Shown piece by piece: positions 9,005-55,624 of a stretch of 64,000 bases of DNA. Within the stretch, counting starts at the first letter, position 1, and the number at the start of each line of letters is the position of its first letter. The position numbers and the translations under genes are program-made. The DNA lies in IMG/VR virus record IMGVR_UViG_3300035698_011749, positions 1 to 64,000 of that record, one strand, 5' to 3'. The notes below the pieces were generated by a model, which saw nothing but the letters and a program-made list of their open reading frames with translations, was not told where the DNA came from and made no database searches. This stretch comes from a virus.

Positions 9005-9005
9005 T

Positions 9006-11925: not shown

Positions 11926-11954
11926 GCAGGCAATATGATGCATGTGTTGCCTGC
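11926..11954 (+). repeat. Intercistronic hairpin
   Basis: GCAGGCAA (11926-11933) pairs with TTGCCTGC (11947-11954), without a U-run. It stands between the abundant small protein and the nuclease gene, so it may be a processing or stability element. Confidence 0.5.
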
Positions 11955-11980
11955 TTCATAAACATTGAAAGGATTTCTAA

Positions 11981-38202: not shown

Positions 38203-39447
38203 TTAATCAGCGTCTGATAGAAATCCGTCGTCGCTCAACGGTTCCCAAGTGCAATGCCAATCTATCGATCCACTCGCAAGAGCCGCGCTTAATACGACCC
38301 TTATGTAGGTAACCAGTCCGTTATCGGCAACAATGTCAATGGGGTTTTTAGGATCCTTAAACGAAGCGTTTTCAGTAACAGCGGGAACACCAGCGGGATT
38401 AGCTAAAGCAAGCGGATCACCAGCATGGCTATTGCGAACTAAAACCGCTCCAGAAACCACATTCTGTATTTGCAAGCCGGGGGAATCCGTTATGTCTACA
38501 CCTGAGTCAGACCATAACTGAAGGTAAATAGTGCTTGACGTACCTGGTATTACAGTTTCCACCATTCCCCAGATATCACTTATTCTAACACCCCCAGTTA
38601 CTTTAAATATGTTATATGTGGTATCTAACCCTGCAAAAGTAGTTGTATTGTGTTTGACATCATCATAATGGAAATCAGACCAGACATTTCCGTGGTCTTC
38701 GTCAACCCACCTTCCATCATCATGCCCTGTCGAGCAGTTGAGGAGTGTCCAGTTTTTGGAGCCTGTCAATATCGCATATCCAGCCCCTTCATGGCCTTCC
38801 GATGTGCAGTTTATTAAGGTTCCAGTATCAGCCCCACCGTTTATCTGATATCCTGTGGTTGCTGAGTTCCCAACCGTTTTACATTCATTGAGTCGGCCTT
38901 GTTGCCCCTGAATATCATAAGCTATCGAGATCGGATACCCAACCGCGTAATCATTAACCACTGTTCCTGAACCGGTCACGCAAAGCCCAACAATACCGCC
39001 TATGATTTTCCCGTCTGAGATTCGGCATTCATCCCCTGAAACCACCATGCCCGTAGCTCCTGATGCGGGGGTCAGCTTGTGATCGCCTACAACTCTGCAT
39101 GAGGCGCCTGATATGGTAAGTGCCGTGCCGGACGCAGGGTTAATAATGACTCCGATTTCAAACCATAGCTCGGCAGCATTGTTGGTTACATCGATCCCCG
39201 TCTCGGTATAGGTTCCCGCTTTGACATTAAGGGAATCCCCGTCAGACATAGCGGCTATTCCAGCCCCAATGGACGCAAAGGCAACGTCAGGGCGTTTGCC
39301 GCTATTGGCATCGGACCCATTGTTTTTGTCCACATACCAGATATCCCCACCGAACTTTGGGATATGGGAGGTCCGGTCAATGAAACTTGCCGAAACAAAG
39401 ACGGGGATGAGGATCAATAAGGCTGCAATTATTATTCTTTTTATCAT
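38203..39447 (-). CDS. Tailspike-like right-handed beta-helix protein with a Sec signal peptide
   Basis: The protein of about 414 residues starts MIKRIIIAALLILIPVFVSA (signal peptide), then WYVDKNNGSDANSGKRPDVA, the standard opening of pectate-lyase-like parallel beta-helices, repeated helix rungs and a distinct C-terminal domain. GGTGG before this ATG favours it over a GTG 9 bp upstream. The beta-helix fits a receptor-binding spike. A signal peptide is unexpected on a virion protein; it shares this with several neighbours. Confidence 0.8.
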   Translation of the reverse strand: MIKRIIIAALLILIPVFVSASFIDRTSHIPKFGGDIWYVDKNNGSDANSGKRPDVAFASIGAGIAAMSDGDSLNVKAGTYTETGIDVTNNAAELWFEIGVIINPASGTALTISGASCRVVGDHKLTPASGATGMVVSGDECRISDGKIIGGIVGLCVTGSGTVVNDYAVGYPISIAYDIQGQQGRLNECKTVGNSATTGYQINGGADTGTLINCTSEGHEGAGYAILTGSKNWTLLNCSTGHDDGRWVDEDHGNVWSDFHYDDVKHNTTTFAGLDTTYNIFKVTGGVRISDIWGMVETVIPGTSSTIYLQLWSDSGVDITDSPGLQIQNVVSGAVLVRNSHAGDPLALANPAGVPAVTENASFKDPKNPIDIVADNGLVTYIRVVLSAALASGSIDWHCTWEPLSDDGFLSDAD

Positions 39448-39449
39448 AT

Positions 39450-40799
39450 TTACCACCAGAATTCTACGCTATCAAAATAAAGGTTAATGGTGTCACCGTC
39501 TGTTAGAACAAGGTCAGATGCACCCCATATCGTTTCCGCGCCATTGGGAGTTAATGTGATATCGTTCCCAGATGATCCGCAATTAGATACTCTGTAATTC
39601 GTTCCGTCAACTCCTGCCGGTAAATTCACAAGGTAAGCTCCGCCGTCTGAATCAGCTAAGACAATATGATGAGTGGCGTCAAGGGTAGTAACCCCTGTGA
39701 TTCTGGTGGTATTCGCCACCCTGCCGCTTGTCGTGGTGAGTTTGGCGTGGGCCACATTGTCAGTCGTCAAAAGGCTCTGGTCAACCTGGATAACCGTGCC
39801 GTCAAAGAGTTGCCATGCAGGGCCAATATTCCCCCCGCCTAAATCCTTCGCCCAATGGCTGAATTGTCCTGCAATGTTACTTGTCGGGTCAACGCCCGTT
39901 GCCATGACAAGGCCCTTGGCTAAAGATGTAGGATTTACAGTCGCACCTATTAGGAGGTTTCCATCCAACAGACGCATGGTTTCAACAAAACCTGTCGTGT
40001 CATATAGCGCATTACCCCCAGGCCCAAAGCGTAATGCCTTGGCTTGCTTCCAATACAATGCAGGGCCGTAAGTATCAGACGCATAGAAGGATAAAAAATC
40101 TGTTGTACTGGCTACCCCAACCTGACCCGCTTCACTATCCCCACGAACATCAAAAGGCAGAAGCGGAGAATCTGTGTTAAGCCCGATATGTCCCCCACCA
40201 GCTTTAATTGCAAATCTGGTTCCTTTATCTGTGCCATTGTAATATTCTTTGAGGTTAAAATCTCCAGTGTTATCCTCTTCCAGCGTGTAATAAAAAGTTG
40301 CACTATAACCAATTCTTAAATTGTTTGCCGTGGTTCTGACAATATGCACTGGTTGGGTATGGCTAACAGTACCATCACCTGCAATAGCGATAGCTCCAGG
40401 GGTGGTAACCGATCCAATGTTTCCAGCATCGGGGATTATTAGGTTTTGATTAAACGAAACCGGCCCAGTCGTATCAAAGGCAAACGCCCCGCCGTTCGAG
40501 TTTACTCTATCGAGTTCAAGGGTATGCCCATCGTGCCTATGGTCTGTGGCAGAAGCACCTATATCGCCTAATATCTGCGCCGCAGTTCGGGACACGACAA
40601 CACCAGCGTTGGATACCAGTATATTCCCGGCTACCCCTGCGGCGATATTGCCAAGGGTCACATTCCCGCTGGCATCTTCAAGGGTCTGGGAGTTCTGAGC
40701 AACTTGGCCCGTTATACCATCAAACCGAATAAAGGCATTAGCAGTCGAGGATGATGGACCACGGATGCCTCTTAGAATTTGCTTGGCAAGCTCACTCAT
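39450..40799 (-). CDS. Tail fibre protein
   Basis: The 449-residue protein has an N-terminal helical anchor-like part (MSELAKQILRGIRGPSSSTA), followed by repetitive beta-rich Gly/Thr/Asn sequence and a phage-fibre-like distal part. No signal peptide. It directly precedes the spike gene in transcription. Probably host recognition. Confidence 0.75.
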   Translation of the reverse strand: MSELAKQILRGIRGPSSSTANAFIRFDGITGQVAQNSQTLEDASGNVTLGNIAAGVAGNILVSNAGVVVSRTAAQILGDIGASATDHRHDGHTLELDRVNSNGGAFAFDTTGPVSFNQNLIIPDAGNIGSVTTPGAIAIAGDGTVSHTQPVHIVRTTANNLRIGYSATFYYTLEEDNTGDFNLKEYYNGTDKGTRFAIKAGGGHIGLNTDSPLLPFDVRGDSEAGQVGVASTTDFLSFYASDTYGPALYWKQAKALRFGPGGNALYDTTGFVETMRLLDGNLLIGATVNPTSLAKGLVMATGVDPTSNIAGQFSHWAKDLGGGNIGPAWQLFDGTVIQVDQSLLTTDNVAHAKLTTTSGRVANTTRITGVTTLDATHHIVLADSDGGAYLVNLPAGVDGTNYRVSNCGSSGNDITLTPNGAETIWGASDLVLTDGDTINLYFDSVEFWW

Positions 40800-40848
40800 T
40801 CAATTACCGCCTCAAAGATAAAAATAAAAATTGTTTTTAAATATTCCA

Positions 40849-41190
40849 TCACTTATCATCCCAATTAAAATCATATCTAATAGCAATACCATCATTATTT
40901 CTAACTGGGATTACACTTTTGAGAGTTTTATTTTTAACAGGATCAACTTTTAAATTTTTATTCTCCATTGAAGATATTAAATTAGAAACCATTTTTAATG
41001 TTTCATCTGGAATGTTATTTGAAGATTCTACAGCTTTTTTAAGTGAAGTAACAGCATAGATTATACTTTTCATTAAATCTTCTATAGAAACAGTTTTCTT
41101 AGAAGGATCTATTTGTGCTTTCGTTTCTTTTATTTTAGCCAATTTAATTTCTTTGACTGACATAACATCTGTAAGTTTTCTTTGCTTCAT
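40849..41190 (-). CDS. Small virion-module protein
   Basis: The 113-residue protein is Lys-rich and helical with a C-terminal strand end (YDFNWDDK). It abuts the internal core protein gene. No family. Confidence 0.5.
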   Translation of the reverse strand: MKQRKLTDVMSVKEIKLAKIKETKAQIDPSKKTVSIEDLMKSIIYAVTSLKKAVESSNNIPDETLKMVSNLISSMENKNLKVDPVKNKTLKSVIPVRNNDGIAIRYDFNWDDK

Positions 41191-41191
41191 T

Positions 41192-43915
41192 TTATTTCAT
41201 CCCAGTTACGCAATTTAAAAGTTCTTCAATAGAACTTATTTGTCCATCATTTTCTATATAAGCATCATGTGCATCTATATCTACAGAATCATTTTCTGTC
41301 TTACCAGCCACAGATATAGGCATATTGATAGTAGTATTTTTAAGAGCTTCTATTTGTTCAGGCGAATATTCATCAATTTTTGGCACTTTCGGTGTTTCAG
41401 GAATAGCTATTCCACGCTTAACAAGCTCCCTGTCGGAGACACTACTCCCGTCCTCAAGCTCATAAATAGGAACAGGCTTGCCAGTCAAGGTGTCAAAGTA
41501 CTTGAACGTAGCCTTCGGCGGAGCTTTGGCATTTTCACGGGTTTCAAACTGAACATCACCTATTTCTGCATCATAAGTAGCTTGTTGATCACGTTGCTGT
41601 TCTAATTGCTTTTCATTTTCTAATTGCTGTTCACTTTTGAACGTACTTGGTTCGCCTTCTGTCTTGGCGCGTTCTTCCGCAAGAACTTCTTGCCTATAAG
41701 TTTCTTTATCAAAAATGACATTTGGCTCTACCTTACCGCCAAGTCTTTCAGTTGCTTTATCAATAAAAGTAGGGTCTTGTTGACCTAATATATGAGATTC
41801 AGGAGTTTCAATTAATGTAGAACTAACTCCTTCATTAATAAGTTTTTCTCTATTAAGAAGTGTGCGCTGCTGAAAATCACGAATTAATTTATCAATTTGA
41901 AATTTTTCTTCTGGTGTTTTTGCTAATGATTTAAGTTCTGCGATTTTTTGATTATGTCTTTCATCAAGTTCTTGTTCAGCAGGCCACCAAAGACTGTCAA
42001 TTTGCTGCTGTCTTTCTTGCCCAGCTAAATCAATAGAATCAGGAATAAACTTTTGGGCTAAATGTAACTGATCTCTTTCATAAACTTTCCATTCTTCATC
42101 AATTGCTTGTTGAATTTCTTGAGAGCGTTTAATTTCTGAGGATTCTTTAATTTTCTTAATTCTTTTTTGTCGATTTATTTCTGCCTGTTTTTGATCTTTT
42201 ATTGCCTGCTGTTCTCGATTCCAAACAAGTTCTTCTTTAGAATCTGCGGCTGGTATTTTAGTTTTTTTACGATCACCAAGCCAGTCTTTAAACATGGTTT
42301 GGTCCATTTTAGTAATATTGCCAAGACCTTTCCAACCTGGATCATAGTTGTTGAGATATAACTCTTTAGCAGCTTCTTCAGAATTAACTCCCATAATTAC
42401 TTTGTGTTCATCAAATTTACCAGTTTGTGGATCTATTTGGTCAACAATATAAACACGCGGACTTACTGTTGTGCCTGGCTTAATAAATACATCAACTTGA
42501 TCACCATCTTTTCCCTCAGTTCTGGCAAAATATCCATAATGACCAGCCATTTGAGTAGACCAGCTTTCTCCATCTTGATCTACTCCAGATCTAAAAGAGC
42601 CGGCAGGATTTTCAATTTTAATATCTAAATTATTTACTTTAATCGGAGCTTTTTTATAATTACCAGCTTCTTTTTGTTTGTCACTTGGATTAATATTAAC
42701 ATCTTCTTTATTTATTTGATCATCAACATTTTCAAGACCAACTTCTTTCATTAGACGCTTTTGCAGCTTTGTTGACAAGTCAAGTTTTTTATTTAAATTA
42801 GCAGTGACTTCTTCAACAGTTGTACCATAATCTTTAGTTCGACCAAGCACTGCTTGAGGATCATTTAACCAATTTTTAATAGCATCTACATCTTGACCTA
42901 TTTGAATAATTGATGCATTAATATTTTCTGACCCATTAGAAATGATGTTTTCAGCACGTTGATTTATTAACTTATCATCTTTTTGTGTCTGCTGCTTTTC
43001 AACTGCTTGAACAAAAGCATTTGCACCGCCACCCATTGCAACACCAGCCAACAATCCAGTTGCACCAGCCTTGCCTAAACCTTCATCTAATGGTTTGCCA
43101 AGCGCTGCATTAGACCAAACCTGCTCTTGAATAGATTGTGGTAATTCTTCTAAAACGCCTTCAGTAAAACCACCTTCAAGAATTCTTCGTGCAATACCTT
43201 TATTGGATTTTTCAGCAAATTTACCTTTTGCAAGTAATGTATCAATATCACCGATCTTGTATTTTTGTGCAATTCTACCACTAATAGCTCCAATAACACT
43301 GGTAATGGCACCAGAAGCAAGATTTTTAGCAATTTGTCCAGCAGTTAATGTACCAGTTTCAGTTTGTTGGCGTGTCTGTTCTGCTCCCATTCCAGCAGAT
43401 ACAGCACCTTCACCAATTGCACCAGCAATATATGGAGCAGCAACCATGCCAGTTTTTAACAAACCTTTTGCAATAGCAGTGCCACCAAACATAGATGGAA
43501 GTGATTCAAGAACTGTATGTACAATTGTACTTGGATTTTCAATAGATGTAGCTAATGTATCTAAAAAGCCGTCAGCTTCGCTAACTTTTCTAAAAGCTTC
43601 TTTTTGCGGATCAGAATATAAACTACCAAGCATCCTATGTGTTTCTTTAGGATCATATCCAAGATATTCTAAACCTTTGCCAGCATAACCACCAGAAACA
43701 AGATCAGCTAAACCAACAGCAGTTTCACCAACACCAATAATGCTTTTAGCTGCAGTTACACCAACATCACCTACATAATCAGAAAAACTTCGATCAGTTG
43801 ATCTTGGATCTATGCCAGGATTAACAATATTCAATCCTGAAGCTGATTGAGTAGTATCTTCATCCCATTTTATTCCAGCTTGCACTGGTTGTTCATTATT
43901 CCAAGTAATAGGCAT
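41192..43915 (-). CDS. Internal virion/polyvalent protein with an InPase-like domain (gp16-like position)
   Basis: The 907-residue protein has three parts. The first is an Ala/Gly-rich hydrophobic segment (about 130-300) that could cross the membrane during ejection. The second, about 410-545, matches the inorganic-pyrophosphatase-like (InPase) domain of polyvalent proteins (KEAGNYKKAPI, IENPAGSFRSG, HYGYFARTEGKDGDQVDVFI, YIVDQIDPQTGKFDEHK). The third is a charged coiled coil to the end. Position after gp13/14/15-like genes suggests a T7 gp16-type ejected core protein. Confidence 0.75.
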   Translation of the reverse strand: MPITWNNEQPVQAGIKWDEDTTQSASGLNIVNPGIDPRSTDRSFSDYVGDVGVTAAKSIIGVGETAVGLADLVSGGYAGKGLEYLGYDPKETHRMLGSLYSDPQKEAFRKVSEADGFLDTLATSIENPSTIVHTVLESLPSMFGGTAIAKGLLKTGMVAAPYIAGAIGEGAVSAGMGAEQTRQQTETGTLTAGQIAKNLASGAITSVIGAISGRIAQKYKIGDIDTLLAKGKFAEKSNKGIARRILEGGFTEGVLEELPQSIQEQVWSNAALGKPLDEGLGKAGATGLLAGVAMGGGANAFVQAVEKQQTQKDDKLINQRAENIISNGSENINASIIQIGQDVDAIKNWLNDPQAVLGRTKDYGTTVEEVTANLNKKLDLSTKLQKRLMKEVGLENVDDQINKEDVNINPSDKQKEAGNYKKAPIKVNNLDIKIENPAGSFRSGVDQDGESWSTQMAGHYGYFARTEGKDGDQVDVFIKPGTTVSPRVYIVDQIDPQTGKFDEHKVIMGVNSEEAAKELYLNNYDPGWKGLGNITKMDQTMFKDWLGDRKKTKIPAADSKEELVWNREQQAIKDQKQAEINRQKRIKKIKESSEIKRSQEIQQAIDEEWKVYERDQLHLAQKFIPDSIDLAGQERQQQIDSLWWPAEQELDERHNQKIAELKSLAKTPEEKFQIDKLIRDFQQRTLLNREKLINEGVSSTLIETPESHILGQQDPTFIDKATERLGGKVEPNVIFDKETYRQEVLAEERAKTEGEPSTFKSEQQLENEKQLEQQRDQQATYDAEIGDVQFETRENAKAPPKATFKYFDTLTGKPVPIYELEDGSSVSDRELVKRGIAIPETPKVPKIDEYSPEQIEALKNTTINMPISVAGKTENDSVDIDAHDAYIENDGQISSIEELLNCVTGMK

Positions 43916-43917
43916 AT

Positions 43918-45282
43918 TTATTTACCATAAAAATACTGTCCAGTAGGTTGGCGTACATTATTTCGATTCCAATTATAGAGCAAATCTACATTTTCAGTTG
44001 GAGAAACATTAGATTGAATCATTCTTGGATCAAAAGCAGGTCCTTTATTAACAGGATTTTGATTAGTGAGTTGTGCTAATGGAGTTGGCACTGGAGCTGG
44101 CACTGGATTCTGCTTTGTTTGATTATTAATTATATTTCCATCTTCATCTCGCTCATTACCATCTTCATCAATAATCCTACCATCTTCTAAACGCTCTACT
44201 TTTTTTCCATCAGAAGCAGTTCCCAGAGTCTTTTTATTTGATGTAATTGACTGCCTTACTATTGAGGATACAGTATAATCATCTTCTTCACGAGTAAAAT
44301 TAACATCTAAATTAAATGCCTTTGCATCTGCTTTAAGTTGTTGTGCTTTCTGTTCTGTTAAAGTTGGACCTGATATCATTCCTTGATATTCTATAAGCCC
44401 ATGTTTTCCCAGTAAATTTTCTATATTTATTTGACTTTCTTCAGCTCGTTTGCGGTCTTCTGCAGCATTTTTTCTTAGCTCAAGACTTTCTTGTGCTATT
44501 CTTTCTTGATAAGTTGGTTGTCTTGTAGATGCTCTTACTTCTGCTCTATCTTCTGCGTCTATCTTATACTGATTCGCTATTAAGCCATCCAAATCCTTTT
44601 GAGCCTGGGCAATGCCTTGTTGAGCTTGCCTTAAAAATACAGGATTTTTTTCAAGATATGGCGCAGCTTGATTAAGTATTTTTCGTTTGTTCAGAAGTTC
44701 CCGTTTAGTCATGCCAATGGGATCATCTTTATATCTTTTAAGTTCAGCCTCATACGCCTTCATTTTACTTTCAGGCAATCCGCCTGCAGCTATTCTGTCC
44801 TCAAGTAGCCTACGAGGACTTGAATTCATTACAATAATCGACTGAAGAGCTTTCATGTGGGGAGCAACAATCTTATCAGATAGCATCTGTCCTGTGTCAT
44901 TTCTTAATACGTTGCCCTTTATGGGATCAAAATGGACTCCATATCCAAGAGCCGAAGACAGCCCGTCATTACCTTCCATGATTCTCTTTGCCTGAAATTC
45001 AGCTTCGGGAATGCTATTCGTTTTACCAATCCGCATAGTAAATGGAGCGTTCTCTTTAGTCTCACGGATACCCTTCACTCTTTCCATTTCATCAATAATC
45101 GCAGTATCCTTAGTGTTTTGTAATTCTCGACTTTCTTGAGCAAATGCATCATTCCTGTCCAACATGTCAAGCCTACGATTCTGATAATCAATGTCCATTC
45201 GCTTTTCAGCAAGGGAATTCAATCTGCCTCGATGCGATCCTATCTGTTCCGTGAGTCCCCTTAGTGCATTTGCTATTGGCAT
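43918..45282 (-). CDS. Internal virion protein (gp15-like)
   Basis: The 454-residue, largely helical charged protein (EKRMDIDYQNRRLDMLDRND) has a Pro-rich low-complexity stretch near the C-terminus (PVPAPVPTPLAQL). The size, coiled nature and order match the T7 gp15 core layer. Assigned mainly by position. Confidence 0.6.
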   Translation of the reverse strand: MPIANALRGLTEQIGSHRGRLNSLAEKRMDIDYQNRRLDMLDRNDAFAQESRELQNTKDTAIIDEMERVKGIRETKENAPFTMRIGKTNSIPEAEFQAKRIMEGNDGLSSALGYGVHFDPIKGNVLRNDTGQMLSDKIVAPHMKALQSIIVMNSSPRRLLEDRIAAGGLPESKMKAYEAELKRYKDDPIGMTKRELLNKRKILNQAAPYLEKNPVFLRQAQQGIAQAQKDLDGLIANQYKIDAEDRAEVRASTRQPTYQERIAQESLELRKNAAEDRKRAEESQINIENLLGKHGLIEYQGMISGPTLTEQKAQQLKADAKAFNLDVNFTREEDDYTVSSIVRQSITSNKKTLGTASDGKKVERLEDGRIIDEDGNERDEDGNIINNQTKQNPVPAPVPTPLAQLTNQNPVNKGPAFDPRMIQSNVSPTENVDLLYNWNRNNVRQPTGQYFYGK

Positions 45283-45283
45283 T

Positions 45284-45682
45284 TTAATCTCCTAAATCCA
45301 TAATGATTCGTATATAAGGTTTTCCATTTGTATTTGTGAAATAACCGATAATCGTCCAACCTGTTTTTAAAGATGTTACAATCGCCCGTTTATTTTCTGT
45401 CTCTACCTGACCCAATAAGAATCGAATCCCACTATCTTTCATGTTTTTCCAAACTTGTTTAGCGAATTTGTATGAGAAATTCTTTTTGCTTTTTGCTGTC
45501 CTTTGAATATAGAAAGTCCGAGCGTCATGGAAATACCCTGAGATAAAGCCCTTGTATTCATCGCCATCATAAACCAGATAGACAATGGCCGGAACATGGT
45601 ACGGGTCTGGAGGAAAAGCCCTGTCATGGAGAATCCGATATTTCTCTCTGATATCGCTTATATTATATTTTTCGATTCTCAT
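45284..45682 (-). CDS. GNAT-like protein of the internal virion module
   Basis: The 132-residue protein has an acetyltransferase-like alpha/beta fold (YLVYDGDEYKGFISGYFHDA; LLGQVETENKRAIVTSLKTG). The usual R/Q-x-x-G-x-G/A acetyl-CoA loop is not seen, so it may be inactive. T7 gp13 holds a similar place in the gene order. Confidence 0.6.
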   Translation of the reverse strand: MRIEKYNISDIREKYRILHDRAFPPDPYHVPAIVYLVYDGDEYKGFISGYFHDARTFYIQRTAKSKKNFSYKFAKQVWKNMKDSGIRFLLGQVETENKRAIVTSLKTGWTIIGYFTNTNGKPYIRIIMDLGD

Positions 45683-46566
45683 TTGCCGCCTGCGCCACCA
45701 GCACCGCCATCTTGACCTGGGGCAGAATAACCGACACTTGGTCCTGCCTCAAAACTCATACCGCCACCATCTCCACTGCCGCCGCCCTCTCCCCATGATG
45801 AATAATTATTGCCGGAGTTGCCATACCCTTCGGCCCCGATCTCGCCCACCGCGTTCCCGTCAGCATCAAAGCCTGGAGAACCGATTGCAAGATCCCATCC
45901 GGGCGTCTGAGGTTCAGCATCAATGGAGCCCTTTGGAGCAGGTACTGGAGCCGGGGGAGTGTTATAGGCGTATAGGCCATTAACGCCTGGGCCTTCATTA
46001 TTTCCAAAATTAGCAGATTCTGCCGACGCCATTGCATCTGCATCGTAAGACGCTGTTATACCTTCGCCTTCGCCTATCTGTCCCAAAGAATGTCCCAGTC
46101 TTCCCAGTCCAAGACCAGTTGAAATTAAATTTGCAAGCCCAGAAGCAGGTCCCAACATCATTGGGCCTATCCCTTTCCCTACTGCAAGCATGGCTTCCGT
46201 GGGAGATAGGCCCTTTCCGCCTTGGTTGGTAGGTCCGGTAAGGCTGGAATCAGATCCTGAATAGGCATCTAACCCCGCCATGCCACCACCATCACCATTA
46301 TACATTTCAGGTGTACTTGCAGGCTTTAAAGAAGCAAGGCTCTGCGCTTGTTGTGGTTTCACGTTCAACGCTGCAATCTGTTTATCTAAATCGGCTAACT
46401 TGCTTGTTGTGTCAGATTCAAGCTGTGCCAATCGAGGGTCTGCACCAGGAATACTTGCAGGGTTTACAATATTATTCAAGCCAAGCCCTGCCTCTGCTAC
46501 TCTACTGCGTAATCCTCTTATCTTGGGTATCTGATATGCTGTTCTTCCTGATAATGAAAACGGCAT
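45679..46566 (-). CDS. Gly/Ser-rich virion protein
   Basis: The 295-residue protein has a short helical start, a hydrophobic Gly-rich segment (GKGIGPMMLGPASGLANLIS, about 130-160), and a very Gly/Ser/Asp-rich low-complexity C-terminus. Probably an internal virion component. GC-richer than its neighbours. Confidence 0.55.
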   Translation of the reverse strand: MPFSLSGRTAYQIPKIRGLRSRVAEAGLGLNNIVNPASIPGADPRLAQLESDTTSKLADLDKQIAALNVKPQQAQSLASLKPASTPEMYNGDGGGMAGLDAYSGSDSSLTGPTNQGGKGLSPTEAMLAVGKGIGPMMLGPASGLANLISTGLGLGRLGHSLGQIGEGEGITASYDADAMASAESANFGNNEGPGVNGLYAYNTPPAPVPAPKGSIDAEPQTPGWDLAIGSPGFDADGNAVGEIGAEGYGNSGNNYSSWGEGGGSGDGGGMSFEAGPSVGYSAPGQDGGAGGAGGK

Positions 46567-46584
46567 TTTTTATCCCCTATTTAC

Positions 46585-47196
46585 TTACCATAAACCAATA
46601 ATGTCATCAATTATACTTCCAGCAAAACTACCAGAAGTCAAAGCCTGTGTACCAAGTCCTGCAGCTAATGCACCACCATATTGAACCATTGGTTTTTGCT
46701 TTCTGAGAGCGTATGCAGTTCCTGCCCCCGCTAAAGCACCCGCCCCAAGAGATCCTGCAGAATATTGCCCTGCCCCTGGTCCTATTTTATTATAATCCTT
46801 CAATAATCCCAGTCCCTGCATTCCAAGTCCTGCGGCACTTATTCCAGCTGATATGTTTCCCTGGGTTTCAGTAAGCTCCTGTCTTTTTCTTTCAAGCTCG
46901 GCCTGTTTTCCAGCAATCGCTTCATTAGACTTCAGAGACGCAGCTGACAATACCCTGTTCAATTCGTTTTCACTTGAGGATATTCTTTCGCTTGATTCTC
47001 TATTAAGTTTGGCAAGGTCGGCTGTTTGTTCCAGTCCCCTGTTTTGAAGAGCTGCTTCTTCTGCAGCTTGCTTATTTGCGTTCTTTATGGCGTAAAGAGC
47101 CGGAAGTCGAGTAGCCGATTCTGAAATCAAATCACTCATATACAGAGACGGTTTTCTCTTGCCATATCTCAAAGCTGATTGTCCTAATAGTGACAT
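46585..47196 (-). CDS. Internal virion protein (gp14-like)
   Basis: The 203-residue protein has a long coiled coil (about 40-115), then a hydrophobic Gly/Ala-rich region (ISAGISAAGLGMQGLGLL; GALAGAGTAYAL) able to insert into membranes. This plan is like T7 gp14, which forms the outer-membrane pore during DNA entry. Confidence 0.65.
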   Translation of the reverse strand: MSLLGQSALRYGKRKPSLYMSDLISESATRLPALYAIKNANKQAAEEAALQNRGLEQTADLAKLNRESSERISSSENELNRVLSAASLKSNEAIAGKQAELERKRQELTETQGNISAGISAAGLGMQGLGLLKDYNKIGPGAGQYSAGSLGAGALAGAGTAYALRKQKPMVQYGGALAAGLGTQALTSGSFAGSIIDDIIGLW

Positions 47197-47208
47197 TGTG
47201 TTCTCCTA

Positions 47209-47748
47209 TTATCTCGGTGGTGCAGCATAATTATTAATAGGTGCATTATAATCATTAATAGGTCTATATCTGAGTCTCTTTAATGATTCAAGTTCTTCCT
47301 TTTCCTTCATGTTTATGAGAGCCTGCAAAGGAACTCCAGCTCCTGATATTAATGCTGATGGAAGCACTTGAGATTTGTCATATTCAAACGCAGCTCTTTT
47401 CAAATCAAGCCTACCATCATCAATTCCTTGCCTTGATTCTATTCCTGCAAGGCCGGTTTCTCTGCGGGTCAAGTCTGATGCTTTCGACATGCTTTCTCGT
47501 GATGCAATATTGGCCTTACTCGTATCCCCTGTCAAGGCTAATCTCTTTTCTTCCCGAGCAAGAAGAGCATTTCCACGTTCTTTATCAGCGCCGTGTTTAG
47601 CCAAGGTAATGTATTTGTCCATCTGTAATCCAGCATCTTTAGTCAAAAGACTTGATACAAGATTTGCATAATTGTCACCCTCACCCATTATGCGCTGTAT
47701 TTTCTTCTGTGTTCTTGAATCATTTGAATTAAAATTAAATGCTGTCAT
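47209..47748 (-). CDS. Helical virion-module protein
   Basis: The 179-residue protein is coiled and charged (REEKRLALTGDTSKANIA) with a hydrophobic patch (SALISGAGVPLQALI) and a repetitive PINDYNAPINNYAAP end. It overlaps the tail-nozzle gene by 4 nt. Likely an internal or connector protein. Confidence 0.55.
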   Translation of the reverse strand: MTAFNFNSNDSRTQKKIQRIMGEGDNYANLVSSLLTKDAGLQMDKYITLAKHGADKERGNALLAREEKRLALTGDTSKANIASRESMSKASDLTRRETGLAGIESRQGIDDGRLDLKRAAFEYDKSQVLPSALISGAGVPLQALINMKEKEELESLKRLRYRPINDYNAPINNYAAPPR

Positions 47749-50507
47749 TTTCTATCCTCCCTCATATAGCCTTTGTTTTCTTGATAGCCCCATCCTAAAG
47801 GCTGAAATCCATTTGTCGTTTCGTCCGTGTCAATAGAAAACTTCAGTCTATGCCAATATCCTCTTAAATTCAGAGGATTAGTCTGTCGTCTGGAAACATA
47901 TGATCCGTCACTTATGTTGACAGCCATAATAGATGTTCCACTCTCAGATGTGTCCTTATAATGCGTTATTTGAACCGTAGCATCTTCTGTCGCAACTCTG
48001 TTTGACAACCTAATCCTTCTCAATACAGTTTCGTTCCAGGCATTATTATCTAAGTAGAAATCTCCAGTTTCCACAGTCTGAGTAATGGCAGTTCCTATCC
48101 AACTCGTACCACTTTCCAGCCTGACCATATACCCGGTATCTATTCCGCCATAAACATATTGATTTCCCTTCGTATCTATAACAGGAATCGCTATCTGGAT
48201 ATTTTCCGCATCACCTGTTGACTTGGTAAACCACTTTGCGAAAGAGAAATTATAAACGAACCATAAATCACCCACCCTAAGATTCCATTCAGTATATATT
48301 GGATCATACCATGCAAAAGCATTTTCAATATTATCAGATCCAACATAATTAGAATCATTTTGATCAAAATATGAATTAATTCCACGTAATGGTTTAGGGA
48401 ATGAACCATCAAAAATATAAGGCCCAGATGGAGATAACCATACCAGAATATTTCTTTCTGGCTGTCCTTCCGACATAACGAATCCTATTTCAATAGATGT
48501 AAGGGTAAACGGCGCTGGACATCCTAAATCATCAGATATTTTATGCACCGTAAATCTACTGGAACTTTCAGGATCGGGATTAGTGCCCAATATAGTATAA
48601 AGCTCAGACCTCTTGAATACTACAAGCTGACTGTAAATCTGACTGCCAAATCTATTAAAGACAGACTTTGCGGTAATTATTTCTTCAGCACCACCAACAA
48701 ATAGGGATTGCCTCATATTGTCACTTGAATCCCTGCCATTCCATACCTCTGGTGCATTCACGGAGGAAAAGTCAATCCTGTTTGGAGTATTGCCTTTTAA
48801 ATAGCCAAATAGAAACACCCTATTTAAATGCAGAGCTGAAAACTTAAAATTATACAATTTGTATGGTGCTGTAATACCATAAATCCTATCTATTATTACA
48901 GCGTCTTCTGAAGCGTCTGTTCCACCTAAAGTTCCACCATAACTTATCTTGTAAAAATACCCAAACTGCCCGAACTTGTACTGCGTGTATTCATCTTCAT
49001 GCGCCGGAGGATGCCATGATAATGCACCAGATTGACCTAATGGCGTGACCCCTGTAATATCTGCCGTATTATCATACGTTACCCCTGAAGCAGTATATGA
49101 TGTTCCGTCCCAGTACGCAATAGTAGTATTAGGTCCAAAAGCGTTAGTGTTTCCTGATAACATTTCAAAATATAAAGCCTGAAGCCTATCTTCAAAACCG
49201 ACTATTATATGATCTGTAGATTTTAGATTTCCAACTTCAGCACCTATTGGAAACAGGTCACTTGAACCTTCATTCACCTCAAGGGTAAAGTCCTTATACT
49301 CCCCACTCCTACTTACCTGAAACGCTATAGAAGTTCTATTTACTTGATCCCATAAATCTACTAAATCCTGCCATGGAGTCGCTAATTTTACATTATAAAT
49401 AACTGCCGAACCAGCCGAAAGCTGGCCTACGTACCAATATAAAACCTGGCCCAAAAGGTATTTTGGTTTTGAAGTCTCTACCGTAGATGGAAAAGATACC
49501 TGCCCGTCAGCGGAAAGTCCTGCCGTACCGTCCGTTTCCGCCAACTCAACCCAGGTGGTTCCGCTCGTCCCTCTCCACTCTGAGAATTTTACAAAGGCTC
49601 CAGCCGTAGCATTTACTGATTGATTATAGAAACTTACACCAGAAATGGGTCTTGTAGCTCCAACCAGAAAATAAGCGGTTCCTCCAGAAGCATCAATCGT
49701 AACTCTTTCAAGGGATGTGTCGTATTCATTATTTACTTGTGCTGTAAAGTCTTTAGGGGATGTAATGTATTCTGTAATGCCAGAAGAGGACAGAATGAAC
49801 GTTCCAACTCTGGTTTCATTCCCGCCCCATATTTGAGATTCCACACCATTGGAGTAAATCACATGCCCCATTGGAGCATCAGAAAACCGTGCCCTTGGAG
49901 TGCTATATGTCAAAACTTGCGCTACTGAAATAGATCCAAATGTCGTTTTATGAGTCGTTCCAGTTGAAGATGCTACCGTGGCGAACTTAGTTTTGTGTGC
50001 AGTTCCAGTTGTGGAATTTATGCTTCCAAATTTTGTGTTATGACCATAAGTCCCTGTAAATATCCCAAATGATATATCTGAATGTATTTCAGTAGTGTCA
50101 AAATTCCCTTGATCCGGTATCGCTGTTTGATTGTCGTAAACTTTACTTTGCGTACCATCATAATTATAAAACTGCATTAAAACATGGGATTCACTCGGAT
50201 AATCCTTATTGAAATGGAACCCGGCCCTCGGTAAGTAATTATTAATATTATTGATCGTAGTGTTTATATAGGAGTAACCATTTACACCCTCTAAGCCTTT
50301 TTCGATAGGTCTTAAATTCGTTTGGGTTTTATAACCATTAAGTCCTATCAGTTCAGACTTGACATCCGGCAACCACATCTTGTCGAACTGGAAATATGAA
50401 TTACTCAGAACTTCAGGTTGAACCCTTGTGGCCTGTTGTGCATTGACGGCAAGGAAGGCCCCCAAAACGAGCGTAATTATAATAATCGGTATCCATCGGG
50501 TTTTCAC
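47745..50507 (-). CDS. Tail tubular/nozzle protein (gp12-like) with a Sec signal peptide
   Basis: The 920-residue protein has a GTG start overlapping the previous stop. Residues 1-23 are a signal peptide (WIPIIIITLVLGAFLAVNA, cleavage after Val-Asn-Ala). The large beta-rich body has features of podovirus nozzle proteins (RSELYTILG, LGCPAPFT, VWLSPSGPYIFDG). About 152-196 there are three tandem 15-residue repeats (GT-x-H-x-T-x-FGSI). Size and order match T7 gp12. The signal peptide on a core tail protein is unusual. Confidence 0.75.
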   Translation of the reverse strand: MKTRWIPIIIITLVLGAFLAVNAQQATRVQPEVLSNSYFQFDKMWLPDVKSELIGLNGYKTQTNLRPIEKGLEGVNGYSYINTTINNINNYLPRAGFHFNKDYPSESHVLMQFYNYDGTQSKVYDNQTAIPDQGNFDTTEIHSDISFGIFTGTYGHNTKFGSINSTTGTAHKTKFATVASSTGTTHKTTFGSISVAQVLTYSTPRARFSDAPMGHVIYSNGVESQIWGGNETRVGTFILSSSGITEYITSPKDFTAQVNNEYDTSLERVTIDASGGTAYFLVGATRPISGVSFYNQSVNATAGAFVKFSEWRGTSGTTWVELAETDGTAGLSADGQVSFPSTVETSKPKYLLGQVLYWYVGQLSAGSAVIYNVKLATPWQDLVDLWDQVNRTSIAFQVSRSGEYKDFTLEVNEGSSDLFPIGAEVGNLKSTDHIIVGFEDRLQALYFEMLSGNTNAFGPNTTIAYWDGTSYTASGVTYDNTADITGVTPLGQSGALSWHPPAHEDEYTQYKFGQFGYFYKISYGGTLGGTDASEDAVIIDRIYGITAPYKLYNFKFSALHLNRVFLFGYLKGNTPNRIDFSSVNAPEVWNGRDSSDNMRQSLFVGGAEEIITAKSVFNRFGSQIYSQLVVFKRSELYTILGTNPDPESSSRFTVHKISDDLGCPAPFTLTSIEIGFVMSEGQPERNILVWLSPSGPYIFDGSFPKPLRGINSYFDQNDSNYVGSDNIENAFAWYDPIYTEWNLRVGDLWFVYNFSFAKWFTKSTGDAENIQIAIPVIDTKGNQYVYGGIDTGYMVRLESGTSWIGTAITQTVETGDFYLDNNAWNETVLRRIRLSNRVATEDATVQITHYKDTSESGTSIMAVNISDGSYVSRRQTNPLNLRGYWHRLKFSIDTDETTNGFQPLGWGYQENKGYMREDRK

Positions 50508-50893
50508 TTAGTCACCCCGGATTCAACTTTTTCAATAATCCCGAATATTGTTTTTTTATCCTTTTTAGCTTCCAGGTCGGTCTTTAACTTCGGCCTAAAC
50601 CCATCTTTTTCCGTCCTGATCTCTGACGGACTGGCTTGATATGTTACGCTACCGGTTTTTAACAGGGCATCAATGGCGGCTTGGTCCCCCTCGACCAATA
50701 CAAGTAAATCAGTGCCTTTTTCAAATCGCTTCAAAACCTGCACTTTTGAGAAATCAGGCTTTACCCTACCATCCGATTTAAACGGATCAATACCGGGCCG
50801 GTTTCTCATGCCCGTTACAGAGGATAATGCGCGACCATTTCGAGGATCATAAAACCCCCTTGAAATCAATTTGAATTTAATCCAGGCTTCCAT
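50504..50893 (-). CDS. Small tail-region protein
   Basis: The 129-residue protein starts MEAWIKFKLISRGFYDPRNG; the ribosome-binding site AGGGAGA decides this ATG over an upstream TTG. Basic, alpha/beta. It lies between the Tat-signal protein and the nozzle gene. No family. Confidence 0.55.
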   Translation of the reverse strand: MEAWIKFKLISRGFYDPRNGRALSSVTGMRNRPGIDPFKSDGRVKPDFSKVQVLKRFEKGTDLLVLVEGDQAAIDALLKTGSVTYQASPSEIRTEKDGFRPKLKTDLEAKKDKKTIFGIIEKVESGVTK

Positions 50894-50901
50894 GGCTCTC
50901 C

Positions 50902-51738
50902 CTATGTAGTGATCGGACAAGTATTAGACGCAGCAACAAAGTAAAGGTTCCCTGGTAAATAACGATTCGCAATTTGACCTATGGTCGGTGTTGTCCCACT
51001 TCCAAAATTGTCATAAAGAGTTGCAAACGTGAGCAACTTGCCCGCATCGAAATCCCCTATTGCAGTGGGTTTAGTGCCTACTGTCCACCCGGCATAGGTA
51101 GTGACTCCATCACAAAATAAGCAGGCATAAATAATGCTTCCGGTTGTGATATTGTCCGTAGATGCCTGTAGCTCAAACGCGTTTTCAACGTCCTCCAACT
51201 GGACATTGAACTTATCAGACCTTACATCTATTTGAACCGTGCAGTTTACACCACCGATTGTATAAGTAAACGTATCCCGATCATCATACCCGGCCCCGAC
51301 ATTGATCTTCATGCAAAAGAAATACTTCGTCTGGCCCTTAAAGATACTGTCAAACCAATTTGTAGTCATTGTCCCATAATCACTCGTTCCATCCAGCAAC
51401 CTGGACGGCGGGGAGCCTGTGGCCCCTGGCATACCGGGGGCGTTTCCTGCAGTAGTACAGACCAAATCAACGCCCGAGACTATCCCCTGGCCTGCTTCGT
51501 CGCCTCCGTCCACTGCGTTTTCAAGGAGCATTATGAAGTGGTCCGTCACGTCTTCAGTCGTTTCATCCCAATCGGCCCAGGATGGTGAACTGACCCCTCC
51601 GCCACTGCTTACGACCGCTGGCAATATCCGCCACCCTCGGGCATCATTGACAGCCCCCATGCCGAGGCAGGCTATTCCGGCATATCCACCAATCTGGAAA
51701 CAGGATTTCAAAAACTCTCTTCGGGTTTTATCGTTCAC
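50902..51738 (-). CDS. Lectin/LamG-like protein with a Tat signal peptide
   Basis: The 278-residue protein (GTG start, AAGGA upstream) begins with a twin-arginine signal (TRREFLKSC, then GGYAGIACLGMGAV). The body has a concanavalin-like jelly-roll pattern (SRLLDGTSDYGTM onward; YFFCMKINV; IYACLFCDGV). It could bind surface sugars. Tat export of a phage late protein is very unusual. Confidence 0.65.
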   Translation of the reverse strand: MNDKTRREFLKSCFQIGGYAGIACLGMGAVNDARGWRILPAVVSSGGGVSSPSWADWDETTEDVTDHFIMLLENAVDGGDEAGQGIVSGVDLVCTTAGNAPGMPGATGSPPSRLLDGTSDYGTMTTNWFDSIFKGQTKYFFCMKINVGAGYDDRDTFTYTIGGVNCTVQIDVRSDKFNVQLEDVENAFELQASTDNITTGSIIYACLFCDGVTTYAGWTVGTKPTAIGDFDAGKLLTFATLYDNFGSGTTPTIGQIANRYLPGNLYFVAASNTCPITT

Positions 51739-51758
51739 TTTATTGCATCCTTAAGAAT

Positions 51759-52529
51759 TTATTTTGACCCCACGGAAGGAGATCCACTTTCGTAAACAAT
51801 CCAAAATCCATCGGCTGGAGAAATAAGGCTTATCCCCTCCCCTGTTGTACCACTTGTGCTACTACTACTCAGGTAATAATAACTTGTTCCAGCACCCGTC
51901 CCCGCTGCGAAAGAAGAATAATTAAGTATTTTATCAGCGGCATTTATCTGAAACCATAAGGTGGAACCGCTTATCATATCGTTAACAAGATAAGCGATTA
52001 CGCTATCCCCTTTAGTCGCGGCGGCGGCTATGCAAGTGACTTCAGAAGAAGCATACATATTCGTAACAATACCGCCACGTTGGGACACTCCTGATAGAGT
52101 TACCGTACCCGTTCTAACGTCAGTCGGGGGTATTTTTCCTGAAAGATATCCCGTTACTGCCGCATTGCCTTCAATTTCGATTGCGTCAATGTATATTTTG
52201 GCAAGTTCCCATGCCGTTACTCCAGCACCGATATCATCAGGTAGAATAATATCAGGTGGATCCTCGAGAGGGTCACTAAATACAGCCATATAAAAATACA
52301 GTCTTGACGTACCTGACTCCGCAACAATGGCTGTATCTTTAGGTCCAATACTAACCCCACTTACCGCACCATCAAGGGAATTAGCACCACTTCCAGATAA
52401 TGATGTAGCATACCAAACAGTAGCTGAATCATCATCATCTCCGGCAAAAGATAGTGCGGAAAATAATAACAGACATATTAAAACCAACGTACCTACACCT
52501 ATTCTTCCACCTATAGTCCAGATTTTCAT
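51759..52529 (-). CDS. Beta-rich late protein with a Sec signal peptide
   Basis: The 256-residue protein has a signal peptide (VGTLVLICLLLFSALSFA, cut before GDDDDS) and a Gly/Ser/Thr-rich beta body ending in a strand-rich SPADGFWIVYESGSPS segment. Resembles tail-associated or surface proteins. No specific family. Confidence 0.65.
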   Translation of the reverse strand: MKIWTIGGRIGVGTLVLICLLLFSALSFAGDDDDSATVWYATSLSGSGANSLDGAVSGVSIGPKDTAIVAESGTSRLYFYMAVFSDPLEDPPDIILPDDIGAGVTAWELAKIYIDAIEIEGNAAVTGYLSGKIPPTDVRTGTVTLSGVSQRGGIVTNMYASSEVTCIAAAATKGDSVIAYLVNDMISGSTLWFQINAADKILNYSSFAAGTGAGTSYYYLSSSSTSGTTGEGISLISPADGFWIVYESGSPSVGSK

Positions 52530-52551
52530 TACTAAAACCTCTTAATAAGAT

Positions 52552-53232
52552 TTATTTATTTTCTTTTATAATACTAGTTATAGCATTATTAATGCTTTCT
52601 AAATATTTATTATACATATTTGAAGACTCCATTTTATCCCTATCAAATGCTTTATATGTTACATAATAAATAAGTGCTTGATTATATTTAGCTGATAATG
52701 GAATTTCTTCTGTAATAGCAATTGTAGTTGGCTTGGCTACATAGAAAACAATTACTTTAGGTCCTCCAGTAACACCAGATAAAGTTGGAAAAATAATAAG
52801 ATTACTACCAACATTGCTTTCATACCAAAAAGTTGGATACTCTTCCATTCCTTGTGTAAGATTCATAGAAGTTGCTTTTCTTAGACCAGTCCAAAGATCA
52901 TCAGAATTAACATAAACTACATCTATAGTCTCTAAATACGCAGTAGCTCCAGATATGTCATATTGATAAGTATCAGCAATAAGACTTATTTCGTATGATC
53001 CTTGTAAACATTTACTGCGAGAAGCAATATCAAGAATTCCCTGATTAACCCAGTTAAGCATATCAGCGTCAGTATAAAAAGTATCACTAACTGCATTAAT
53101 GTCATATCTAATACGATCAATAATAGTCTGTGCAGTTGTTCCAGATGTATATTGTGACTCAGCAAGAGCATTAGAAGCAAATAAAAAGATAAAGAGAATA
53201 GATAAAAAATATTTCATTTTTATCGTTTTCAT
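52552..53232 (-). CDS. Tail-tube adaptor-like (gp11-like) protein with a Sec signal peptide
   Basis: The 226-residue protein has a signal peptide (YFLSILFIFLFASNALA, cut before ES). The remainder (IIDRIRYDINAVSDTFYTDA, then MLNWVNQGILDIASRS; ALIYYVTYKAFDRDKM) has the four-helix plus beta plan of phage adaptor/tubular-A proteins. Adaptors act in the cytoplasm during head completion, so the signal peptide is contradictory. One of the strongest members of the exported set. Confidence 0.75.
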   Translation of the reverse strand: MKTIKMKYFLSILFIFLFASNALAESQYTSGTTAQTIIDRIRYDINAVSDTFYTDADMLNWVNQGILDIASRSKCLQGSYEISLIADTYQYDISGATAYLETIDVVYVNSDDLWTGLRKATSMNLTQGMEEYPTFWYESNVGSNLIIFPTLSGVTGGPKVIVFYVAKPTTIAITEEIPLSAKYNQALIYYVTYKAFDRDKMESSNMYNKYLESINNAITSIIKENK

Positions 53233-53924
53233 TATGCATTCTCCGAAATAAGATTTATATTACGCTGATTGTAAGGAATATAAAGTTCTAATGCCTTCAA
53301 AGCAACAGAAAATAATTTTTGATGAATATCCATCATTCGATTACTTGTGCTTATAATAACTTCCCTATTTGTTTCGTGAATAATATCTTCTTTATTAATT
53401 AGCTTGCCAATATTCCAAACAGCATAATTACCTAAAAGACTTTCTTGTAAATGACTTGGAATTCCATTCGGAGTATTAGCATCATCACTCATATCAGTTG
53501 GCACTTTGTAATAGTGTATTGTAATTTCTGTAACAGTTGTAGGAATTCCTTGGTAATAAAAATTTCCACCAAACTCACAACATTCAACTACTGTACCTGA
53601 TTTATCCAATAATGGATATGTTTCAGCAAGAGACATAAATGTCTCAGCGATGTTAATTTCATTTCCTTCAGATAATGCTGCAAACTGAAGATTGCGTTGA
53701 AAATTGGTAGGCATTGCAACATAGGCTGCAGTAATGGAAGTATCAACCGTACCAATAGTAAACAAATCAGGCAATGGTGGTGTTAACCAATCACCTAAAG
53801 CAGATGGTATTCCACCAGCAATTTCAAGCTGACCCTGATTTAATAGACCACCAATCAAATGACTGTACTTATTATCCTGGACAATACTTTTTACATATGA
53901 TTGAAGTTCTTTATATGTAGCCAT
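53232..53924 (-). CDS. Head-tail adaptor protein
   Basis: The 230-residue protein (YKELQSYVKSIVQDNKYSHL, then IGGLLNQGQLEIAGG; helical end LFSVALKALELYIP) has the same adaptor type as its neighbour but lacks a signal peptide. Overlaps next start by TAATG. Probably joins portal and tail tube. Confidence 0.7.
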   Translation of the reverse strand: MATYKELQSYVKSIVQDNKYSHLIGGLLNQGQLEIAGGIPSALGDWLTPPLPDLFTIGTVDTSITAAYVAMPTNFQRNLQFAALSEGNEINIAETFMSLAETYPLLDKSGTVVECCEFGGNFYYQGIPTTVTEITIHYYKVPTDMSDDANTPNGIPSHLQESLLGNYAVWNIGKLINKEDIIHETNREVIISTSNRMMDIHQKLFSVALKALELYIPYNQRNINLISENA

Positions 53925-54253
53925 TATAAATCATCCCCAGTAACATAAGTAGCAGGAGTTAAAAAGTATCCATCTGTTGTAGCAGTAGCTGTAGGAGTTA
54001 CTTCAAAAGTTTCATCATCAACAGGTCCGCCAGCAGTAAGATCAATCATTCCATAAGAAGTTTCTTTTCGCAAGACTGGCACAGACTGCTTTTCACCAAG
54101 CGGCTTAGGTGGTGAGAATTGTTCATGTTTAGGTTCCCAACAAGTGTCAGCACAAACAAACCAACCATCCCAAGTCATTCTGCATTCACTTGCAAGTCGT
54201 GCAAAACCACAACGGTCACAAATAACCTTATAATCACCAGGTTTATATGGCAT
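53924..54253 (-). CDS. Small zinc-binding structural protein
   Basis: The 109-residue protein has a four-Cys/His zinc motif (ICDRCGF ... VCADTCWEPKHEQ, about 11-45), matching a widespread phage family (CdrCG..., tW.Gl.VC..CwE.rHPQ) next to tail genes. The rest is flexible. Confidence 0.7.
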   Translation of the reverse strand: MPYKPGDYKVICDRCGFARLASECRMTWDGWFVCADTCWEPKHEQFSPPKPLGEKQSVPVLRKETSYGMIDLTAGGPVDDETFEVTPTATATTDGYFLTPATYVTGDDL

Positions 54254-54265
54254 AATTTATTCCTA

Positions 54266-54757
54266 TTAATATATTACAAGAGTTGCTTTGAGAGTATTGA
54301 ATTGAGTCATTCCAGAAACTACGCCAAGCTTTAAATATTTAGCAGTTTCTGGAGTAAATGCCTGAACAACAGGTGTTGCTCCTGATAAAGCAATAGGGCC
54401 ACAAAATGCAGTAACTCCAGAACCAGCCCAAAGAGCATCATCGTCTTTGTTACTTACAGTGTAGACAAGATAATAAGTAGCTCCAGAACCATTGCCAGAA
54501 GTTATTGTTGTGTTATTTTGATCTGATAATGCAAGATCAACATCATATACTTGGACTGAAAATACTTTGTGTTCTGGCCTTACTGCTAAAACATCAATAG
54601 TAGTTGAAAACCAAGATACTCCACTATATGAAACTGATTGATTTAATGCAGTAGTAGTACCAGAAATACTTAACGTACCAACATAATCTCCAGCCATTAC
54701 AGATGTTGTTATGATTAAAATACTTAAAATACAAAAAAGCTTAAATATGTATTTCAT
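54266..54757 (-). CDS. Beta-rich late protein with a Sec signal peptide
   Basis: The 163-residue protein begins MKYIFKLFCILSILIITTSV; AGGAGA before this ATG rules out the longer TTG frame. Signal cut after Val-Met-Ala before GDYVGTLS. The mature part is beta-rich (VSYSGVSWFSTTIDV) and could be decoration or tail surface. It resembles the preceding gene's product in its signal and the GDY start of the mature part. Confidence 0.65.
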   Translation of the reverse strand: MKYIFKLFCILSILIITTSVMAGDYVGTLSISGTTTALNQSVSYSGVSWFSTTIDVLAVRPEHKVFSVQVYDVDLALSDQNNTTITSGNGSGATYYLVYTVSNKDDDALWAGSGVTAFCGPIALSGATPVVQAFTPETAKYLKLGVVSGMTQFNTLKATLVIY

Positions 54758-54868
54758 AATAAATCTCCTAAAAGAATCTATCAGGACCAGAGAAAAAGCA
54801 CATCTTCCAACAAGACGTGAGAAAAACTCCGATCCTAATAGACACAACCACCATACATGGATTTAAGG

Positions 54869-55624
54869 TTAAGGAAGATCCCTATCAACCATCTGAGCGG
54901 ATACCGCAGAATTATAAAACAATCTCCATGTACCCGTCTCGCCGTAGGCATCAATGCCTCTGCTGCCGGTAATTTTAGTCACCGTGACCACGCTTGAGCC
55001 GGAAGATACCATACCAGTCATGTTTTGCATTGGCGTAACTGCCGAACCGGGACCAATTATGGTAGTGCCTGTAAGAGGCGCAGGCCAAACATAAACCGTT
55101 GATGACCCAGATCCACCTGCCAATGACCCCGTAGTGGACCACACTATCGTGACAGTCTGCATATCATTTGCAGCTGTAGCAAGTGGTAAATGAGCAGTAA
55201 CTCCAGACCAGCCTTGAATTTGGGTTACACCAGTGCCGGTCGTCGATGCAGATTCATATATCTTCTGGCAGTCTACAAAGTATGTCTTGCCAGCTTCAGT
55301 CTGAAAATAAGAATCACCTGAAGCTGCGCCAGCAGCCCACGTTGATAGGTCAGAAATAGCGTCAATTACAACGATACTTCCAGGCCCGCCAGACAAAACA
55401 GGATTACCAGACGGTGCTTGAATCGTGTAAACATCACCTGTCTCAGACACTCTAAATTTTGTACTTTCATCCTTGTCAGTAAGCCTCAAAAGATCCCTGT
55501 CGGATGCAGCATCATCAGTTGTTGCCTTTACCTCCAAAGAACTATGTCGTGTATAATCTCCCGCAAAAGCAGGAGAACACAACATAAAAAGAGCTAAAAT
55601 AATAAAAATAAGAAGTCGTTTCAT
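54869..55624 (-). CDS. Beta-rich late protein with a Sec signal peptide
   Basis: The 251-residue protein has signal MKRLLIFIILALFMLCSPAF-A, cut before GDYTRHSS, and a beta-rich mature part with a collagen-like/fibre flavour (SGNPVLSGGPGSIVV). First gene downstream of the major capsid gene in the late transcript. AAAGGAG upstream. Possibly a minor virion surface protein. Confidence 0.65.
   Translation of the reverse strand: MKRLLIFIILALFMLCSPAFAGDYTRHSSLEVKATTDDAASDRDLLRLTDKDESTKFRVSETGDVYTIQAPSGNPVLSGGPGSIVVIDAISDLSTWAAGAASGDSYFQTEAGKTYFVDCQKIYESASTTGTGVTQIQGWSGVTAHLPLATAANDMQTVTIVWSTTGSLAGGSGSSTVYVWPAPLTGTTIIGPGSAVTPMQNMTGMVSSGSSVVTVTKITGSRGIDAYGETGTWRLFYNSAVSAQMVDRDLP

Follow-up and report, generated by a model that had tools for sequence, protein, structure and literature searches.

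Why should a tailed phage place export signals on genes that lie among its structural genes, when the assembly of tailed-phage virions is regarded as an entirely cytoplasmic process? The question is raised by the tail block (positions 38203–55624) of the window, the 64,000-nucleotide stretch analysed here, which forms part of the 64,496-base virus record IMGVR_UViG_3300035698_011749 in IMG/VR. Seven late genes in this block, named by their lower coordinate (38203, 47745, 50902, 51759, 52552, 54266, and 54869), begin with predicted signals for the general secretory (Sec) or twin-arginine translocation (Tat) pathway; they are mostly of spike, fibre, or lectin type and include one tail-adaptor fold. 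That the signals are real and direct export by Sec/Tat is the best-supported reading of the sequence, and a well-supported one, because the signal is conserved in an ortholog, signals occur family-wide in related cassettes, and 52552 has no alternative start. As to function, we tentatively favour, with a probability of roughly 0.45, add-on virion-surface proteins that are exported late and either join particles or act at the cell surface, outside the cytoplasm.

Export signals in the tail block

Signals were called with a scanner of our own, uncalibrated, which looks for a positive n-region, a hydrophobic core, and a small-x-small cleavage site, or for a Tat motif. The scan of 37 late genes marked the seven named above and scored a signal in none of the others. 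Together with the chance controls, it bears out the claim of an earlier sequence-only reading that seven late genes begin with export signals, six of Sec type and one of Tat type. All six Sec genes combine a positive n-region, a hydrophobic core, and a small-x-small site near residue 20–29, with scores of 27–33, and are putative substrates of Sec signal peptidase I, whose translocation and cleavage we infer. The hydrophobic cores of the signals span 10–17 residues, and a lipobox with a cysteine after the signal was found in none of the seven genes. In 50902, the Tat call comes from an S/T-R-R-x-F-L-K motif (TRREFLK) together with a mildly hydrophobic core; its cleavage site (NDARG or NDA) is weak. 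The pattern [STN]RRxFL[KRSAQ] occurs in only two of 9369 scanned genes, 50902 and one other (TRRWFLK). The latter, at 2516–3190 of L116, a phage-like contig from an Acidobacteriia bin, lies upstream of the terminase gene, two genes away.

A score of 18 was reached by 4 of 3741 internal windows of the same proteins and by 9 of 3600 whole-protein shuffles; chance origin of the signals is excluded, the chance rate being about 0.1%–0.3%. The same scanner marked 19 of 1094 genes downstream of related capsid genes at 107 loci (some of which derive from the same phage, and 95 of which have none); a further 73 phage loci gave 4 of 652 genes. In the tail block, 7 of 18 genes are marked. The corresponding P of about 1e-8 is descriptive only, since signalled genes cluster and the scanner is uncalibrated.

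Could the signals instead be an artefact of wrong starts, chance hydrophobic N-termini, or misassembly? Three of the starts are GTG or lack a clear ribosome site, and this speaks for such a reading. Gene 47745 starts at GTG 50507, with a 4-bp overlap with the previous stop, and is flagged by the scanner only when read from there; its next start, an ATG at codon 44, has no ribosome site. For 38203, neither GTG 39456 nor ATG 39447 has a clear ribosome site, the start overlaps the end of the upstream gene, and the corrected start is probably 39447. Gene 50902 has a possible TTG start located after its signal. However, each of 52552, 51759, 54266, and 54869 has a good ribosome site, none has a ribosome-site-backed start shortly past its signal, and wrong annotated starts were rejected as the source of their signals; 52552 has no in-frame start codon between codons 6 and 58. 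The start of 54266 was itself corrected, being most likely the internal ATG 54757 (AGGAG upstream) rather than TTG 54847. The low chance rate also counts against an artefact, which is largely refuted by an ortholog in the same slot and by the same pattern in independent contigs (both described below) and is thus extremely unlikely.

Closest relatives and an ortholog of 54869

The two closest genomes, G010 and G011, are virus records that we take from their IMG sample numbers to come from groundwater. They share the gene order of the window, with identities of 87% for the capsid protein, 78%–79% for the terminase, 72% for the portal, and mostly 58%–78% for the replication proteins. Neither holds a counterpart of the window's signalled genes; in each, the interval from capsid to adaptor gene carries signalled genes of its own, which in G010 encode a spike/fibre protein with a lipobox, a lectin-like protein, a beta-helix-like protein, and a putative lipoprotein. 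This interval holds a signalled gene in the window (54869 and 54266) and, among the relatives, in G010, G011, and a further contig, L310. The exported set differs between the window and G010/G011, and its place and type are common to them.

L310 carries the sole relative of 54869 that was found, which aligns at 54% identity from end to end and occupies the same position in the gene order (capsid, 54869, zinc-ribbon, adaptor). Only 9 of 21 signal residues are identical, yet the lysine, the core, and the AxA-type site are kept, and the mature start GDYTRH is unchanged. As far as sequence can tell, a diverged signal before an identical mature start is what one would expect to see if the signal peptide works. 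The sequence-only reading had named relatives whose starts lie after the signal segments as evidence that would count against its proposal; for 54869, the relative in L310 retains its signal intact.

The ortholog also bears on the suggestion that the hydrophobic N-termini stay uncleaved and tether the proteins to the membrane during assembly. Cores of 10–17 residues could anchor a protein, and the weak cleavage site of the Tat protein would suit a tether; however, six of the seven have good small-x-small sites, mature starts are conserved although the signals have diverged, and the lengths fit signals better than anchors, which makes tethering very unlikely.

A signalled adaptor and the nozzle slot

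The product of 52552 matches the Pfam family PF24175 (SU10_adaptor) at 3.9e-17 over residues 32–220 (63.8 bits against a cut-off of 27; profile positions 1–180 of 194), and the domain begins shortly after the 24-residue signal. One adaptor-fold protein thus certainly bears a predicted export signal. Gene 53232 likewise exceeds the curated cut-off of the family, from which 52552 differs by the Sec signal ahead of its domain; no other adaptor seen has one. Tandem adaptors are present in other relatives, with a signal on none of those seen. In G010 and G011, both the adaptor (47% identical to 53232) and the nozzle (phrog_8040) are without signal. The 53232 adaptor is also 36% identical to an unannotated stretch of the archaeal Methanosarcina virus MetMV.

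Gene 47745 lies where relatives keep the nozzle, a label resting on gene order and motifs. It has no PHROG, Pfam, or PDB match, and iterative nozzle hidden Markov models (HMMs) did not detect it. Aligned to a nozzle profile with hhalign, it gave E = 0.08 with 250 columns aligned in order (controls, 56 columns or fewer), and an AlphaFold2 (AF2) model of the mature protein built without homologs reached a predicted local distance difference test (pLDDT) score of 29. No relatives of 47745, 52552, or 50902 were found in viral contigs. The earlier interpretation is supported in part, for the signals and for export; its proposal that core tail parts are exported is not supported as it stood. Gene 52552 does combine the adaptor fold with a signal, but the shared adaptor 53232 is signal-free, and the nozzle identity of 47745 is unproven.

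Genes 52552 and 47745 both figure in the idea that assembly is divided between two compartments. DNA-filled heads would be closed by a cytoplasmic adaptor while 52552, 51759, 50902, 47745, 38203, 54869, and 54266 are exported via Sec/Tat, fold in the periplasm, and join at lysis, which we consider fairly unlikely; that the distal tail in its entirety, with 52552 and the nozzle-slot protein among its components, is built in the periplasm and joins heads closed by 53232 at lysis is unlikely. Signals sit on proteins predicted to be outside or distal and on none of the head proteins, internal proteins, or conserved adaptor, and standard starts cannot yield 52552 without its signal, both as such an assembly would have it. 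The doubtful identity of 47745 weighs on the other side, however, as do the signal-free nozzles of the relatives, the signal-free fibre-like protein 39450, and the possibility that a DNA-filled head with only one adaptor leaks.

Signalled cassettes in other phages

The sequence-only reading knew of no phage with such an arrangement. A phrase search of the open-access literature turned up no account of tailed phages with signals on structural or fibre genes; however, similar arrangements occur in the relatives and in about a dozen further phage contigs, where fibre, lectin, and beta-helix genes with Sec signals stand in runs. Relatives of the signalled spike of G010 (spike family A5/A6) carry a signal in all 16 contigs found by scanning with alignment A5, two of which are near-identical. 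These contigs, mostly with 1–5 further signalled genes close by, include podophages with unrelated portals (phrog_332). The family was found in none of 297 genomes searched and in no cultured phage. Distant fibre proteins, reached via a short shaft motif, have a signal in 0 of 63 cases.

An AF2 model of the spike family, with a pLDDT around or above 90 in the C-terminal domain, matches the capsid spike of Pseudomonas phage Pa223 (9ny6_C; E 1.1e-6) and viral tail-fibre models. The predicted fold is thus like that of the Pa223 spike (PDB 9ny6) and phage tail fibres, from which the family, itself not represented among the window proteins, differs in being predicted to be exported. The spike domain also resembles small signal-free proteins encoded shortly downstream of the capsid gene (L078 2987–3406; L146 11511–11912). 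Most members have a cysteine pair near the C-terminus (both lost in two), and this pair would suit an oxidising compartment. For the window, we rejected the idea that a disulfide requirement alone accounts for export, since most mature proteins there have one cysteine.

Partner genes in the cassettes encode Laminin_G_3 and Beta_helix proteins. Three lectin-like partners carry GSQEIRSVVGMAK or a variant right after the cleavage site, with weaker similarity in a fourth, and this short element may be a docking peptide. A mature-start motif, GSMTRDSSL, is shared with L172 (two sequences only). On L305, a phage with a phrog_1328 capsid, five consecutive signalled genes (6968–12948), one encoding a Laminin_G_3 protein, lie between structural genes. 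In four cultured Gluconacetobacter prophages, a fibre-type gene comparable to the signalled family lies downstream of the capsid gene; all four share the mature start QYAPF, although their signals have diverged, ending in VSAWA or APAVA. The hosts are Gluconacetobacter johannae LMG 21312, azotocaptans LMG 21311, asukensis LMG 27724, and dulcium LMG 1728.

The cassettes admit a second function for exported proteins: fibre, lectin, and beta-helix modules may have been reused as secreted, non-virion effectors that mask receptors, keep later phages out, or bind and cut surface polysaccharide around lysis. This is possible, and nearly as likely as add-on surface parts. Lectin and beta-helix domains fit surface binding, and the cassettes adjoin lysis-type genes and themselves include putative lipoproteins. 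The adaptor and nozzle genes of the closest relatives are complete and signal-free, so that the exported parts need not be virion parts. Against this, the matches of the signalled spike family are to a capsid spike and tail fibres of phages and to a small protein encoded next to the capsid gene in other phages, and the gene slots lie among structural genes.

A model of late export

Two observations make add-on surface parts the preferred reading: the predicted fold of the related family is that of virion spikes, and structural genes surround the signalled ones. On this view, a Pam1/P22-like podophage with a conventional head module would have placed functional export signals on proteins of the virion-surface class. 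Late in infection, host Sec (Tat for 50902) would carry these proteins across the inner membrane, signal peptidase would remove the signals, and folding would take place beyond that membrane. The cytoplasm would keep the heads, the portal, the conserved adaptor 53232, and the large internal proteins (41192 and 31722). What is exported would most probably be spikes, fibres, and lectins added on to the virion, which would bind the particle, or shed cell-surface material, only when lysis brings particles and periplasm together. The sequence itself shows the signals, their conservation in one ortholog and across a related spike family, and the adaptor fold of 52552; translocation, cleavage, timing, and the place of attachment are predicted.

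Several points tell against this reading. The signal calls come from our own scanner rather than SignalP; attachment of the exported proteins to particles is something we infer; the closest relatives, as described, hold complete adaptor and nozzle genes free of signals; and the window proteins show no homology to the spike C-terminal domain (A5/A6) or to the cassette genes of other phages, the likeness being one of type only.

Gene map of the window

The late block lies on the minus strand; it opens with terminase, continues through portal, capsid protein, and tail genes, and ends with lysis-type genes at about 31 kb (Table 1). The window belongs to an uncultivated tailed phage whose head module is of the Pam1/P22-like podophage type; aligned related phages have portals 27%–39% and capsid proteins 44%–55% identical to those of the window. 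Family searches gave no match for 54869, 54266, 51759, or 50902.

Table 1. Head and tail genes of the window, with predicted signals (^, cleavage site).
Feature	Coordinates	Strand	Signal	Remarks
Sec-signalled beta-helix/tail-fibre-like protein	38203..39447	-	39388-39447; VSA^SFID	phrog_9851 tail fibre 9.9e-6; weak Beta_helix match
Tail-fibre-like protein (by eye)	39450..40799	-	none	no family match in PHROG/Pfam searches
Sec-signalled 920-amino-acid protein in nozzle slot	47745..50507	-	50439-50507; VNA^QQAT	
138-amino-acid protein	50504..50920	-	none	4-bp overlap with start of 47745
Tat-signalled protein	50902..51738	-	about 51634-51738; TRREFLKS	mature part lectin-like by eye only
Sec-signalled protein	51759..52529	-	52443-52529; SFA^GDDDD	family not matched
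Second SU10-type adaptor-fold protein, Sec-signalled	52552..53232	-	53161-53232; ALA^ESQY	PF24175
SU10-type adaptor	53232..53924	-	none	PF24175 2.9e-7; 47% to closest relatives
Zinc-ribbon-like protein	53924..54253	-	none	between capsid and adaptor genes; conserved in relatives
Sec-signalled small protein	54266..54757	-	54692-54757; VMA^GDYV	
Sec-signalled spike/fibre-like protein	54869..55624	-	55562-55624; MKRLLIFIILALFMLCSPAFA^GDYTRH (AFA^GDYT)	directly after capsid gene
Major capsid protein	55722..56645	-	none	phrog_371; 87% to two closest genomes
Portal	59615..61738	-	none	phrog_1216 2.1e-19
Large terminase part	63006..63857	-		78%-79% to relatives

The head module includes a GroES-like co-chaperonin (59004–59324, minus strand) common to Pam1-like relatives. 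Directly downstream of the terminase gene, a small gene (62759–62944, minus strand) has an LNSC lipobox by eye and is lipoprotein-like. Two large polyvalent-type proteins (41192–43915 and 31722–37148, both minus strand), with an inorganic pyrophosphatase-type domain (PF18823, DarB-like PHROG) and LPD23, are probably internal ejected proteins. On the early side, 21473–21769 (plus strand) encodes a textbook Sec signal, MKKLLLAAIALALFAGPAWA^EPR, with three cysteines in the mature part, and sits in a stretch whose G+C (0.47) is higher than that of its surroundings.

Known systems and significance

Pam1/P22-like podophages such as Alcaligenes phage QDWS535, Pelagibacter phage HTVC023P, and phage DSL-LC04 share with the window the portal, the capsid protein, the GroES-like protein, and the order of genes as far as the capsid gene; they differ in that their adaptor and nozzle lack export signals. 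The cultured HTVC023P does have signals on gp45 and gp46 (L005 29263–31338), both of which begin with Sec-type signals in the late block.

Exported phage proteins in general are already known. The superinfection-exclusion lipoproteins T5 Llp and phi80 Cor are phage-encoded and sent to the envelope; the seven proteins here, however, lack a lipobox, are larger, and in several cases have structural folds. Inovirus coat proteins are virion proteins with signal peptides, a feature shared with the virion-type proteins described here; this phage, however, has no filamentous-phage genes and a tailed particle with a DNA-filled head.

The idea is testable because cultured Gluconacetobacter prophages hold a comparable gene. 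Recurrent signalled spike, fibre, and lectin genes would mean one of two things: some of the particle completes its maturation beyond the cytoplasm, or phages release copies of their own receptor-binding parts. Either outcome would alter the way in which genomes are read for receptor-binding proteins and could account for proteins that do not fold properly in the cytoplasm.

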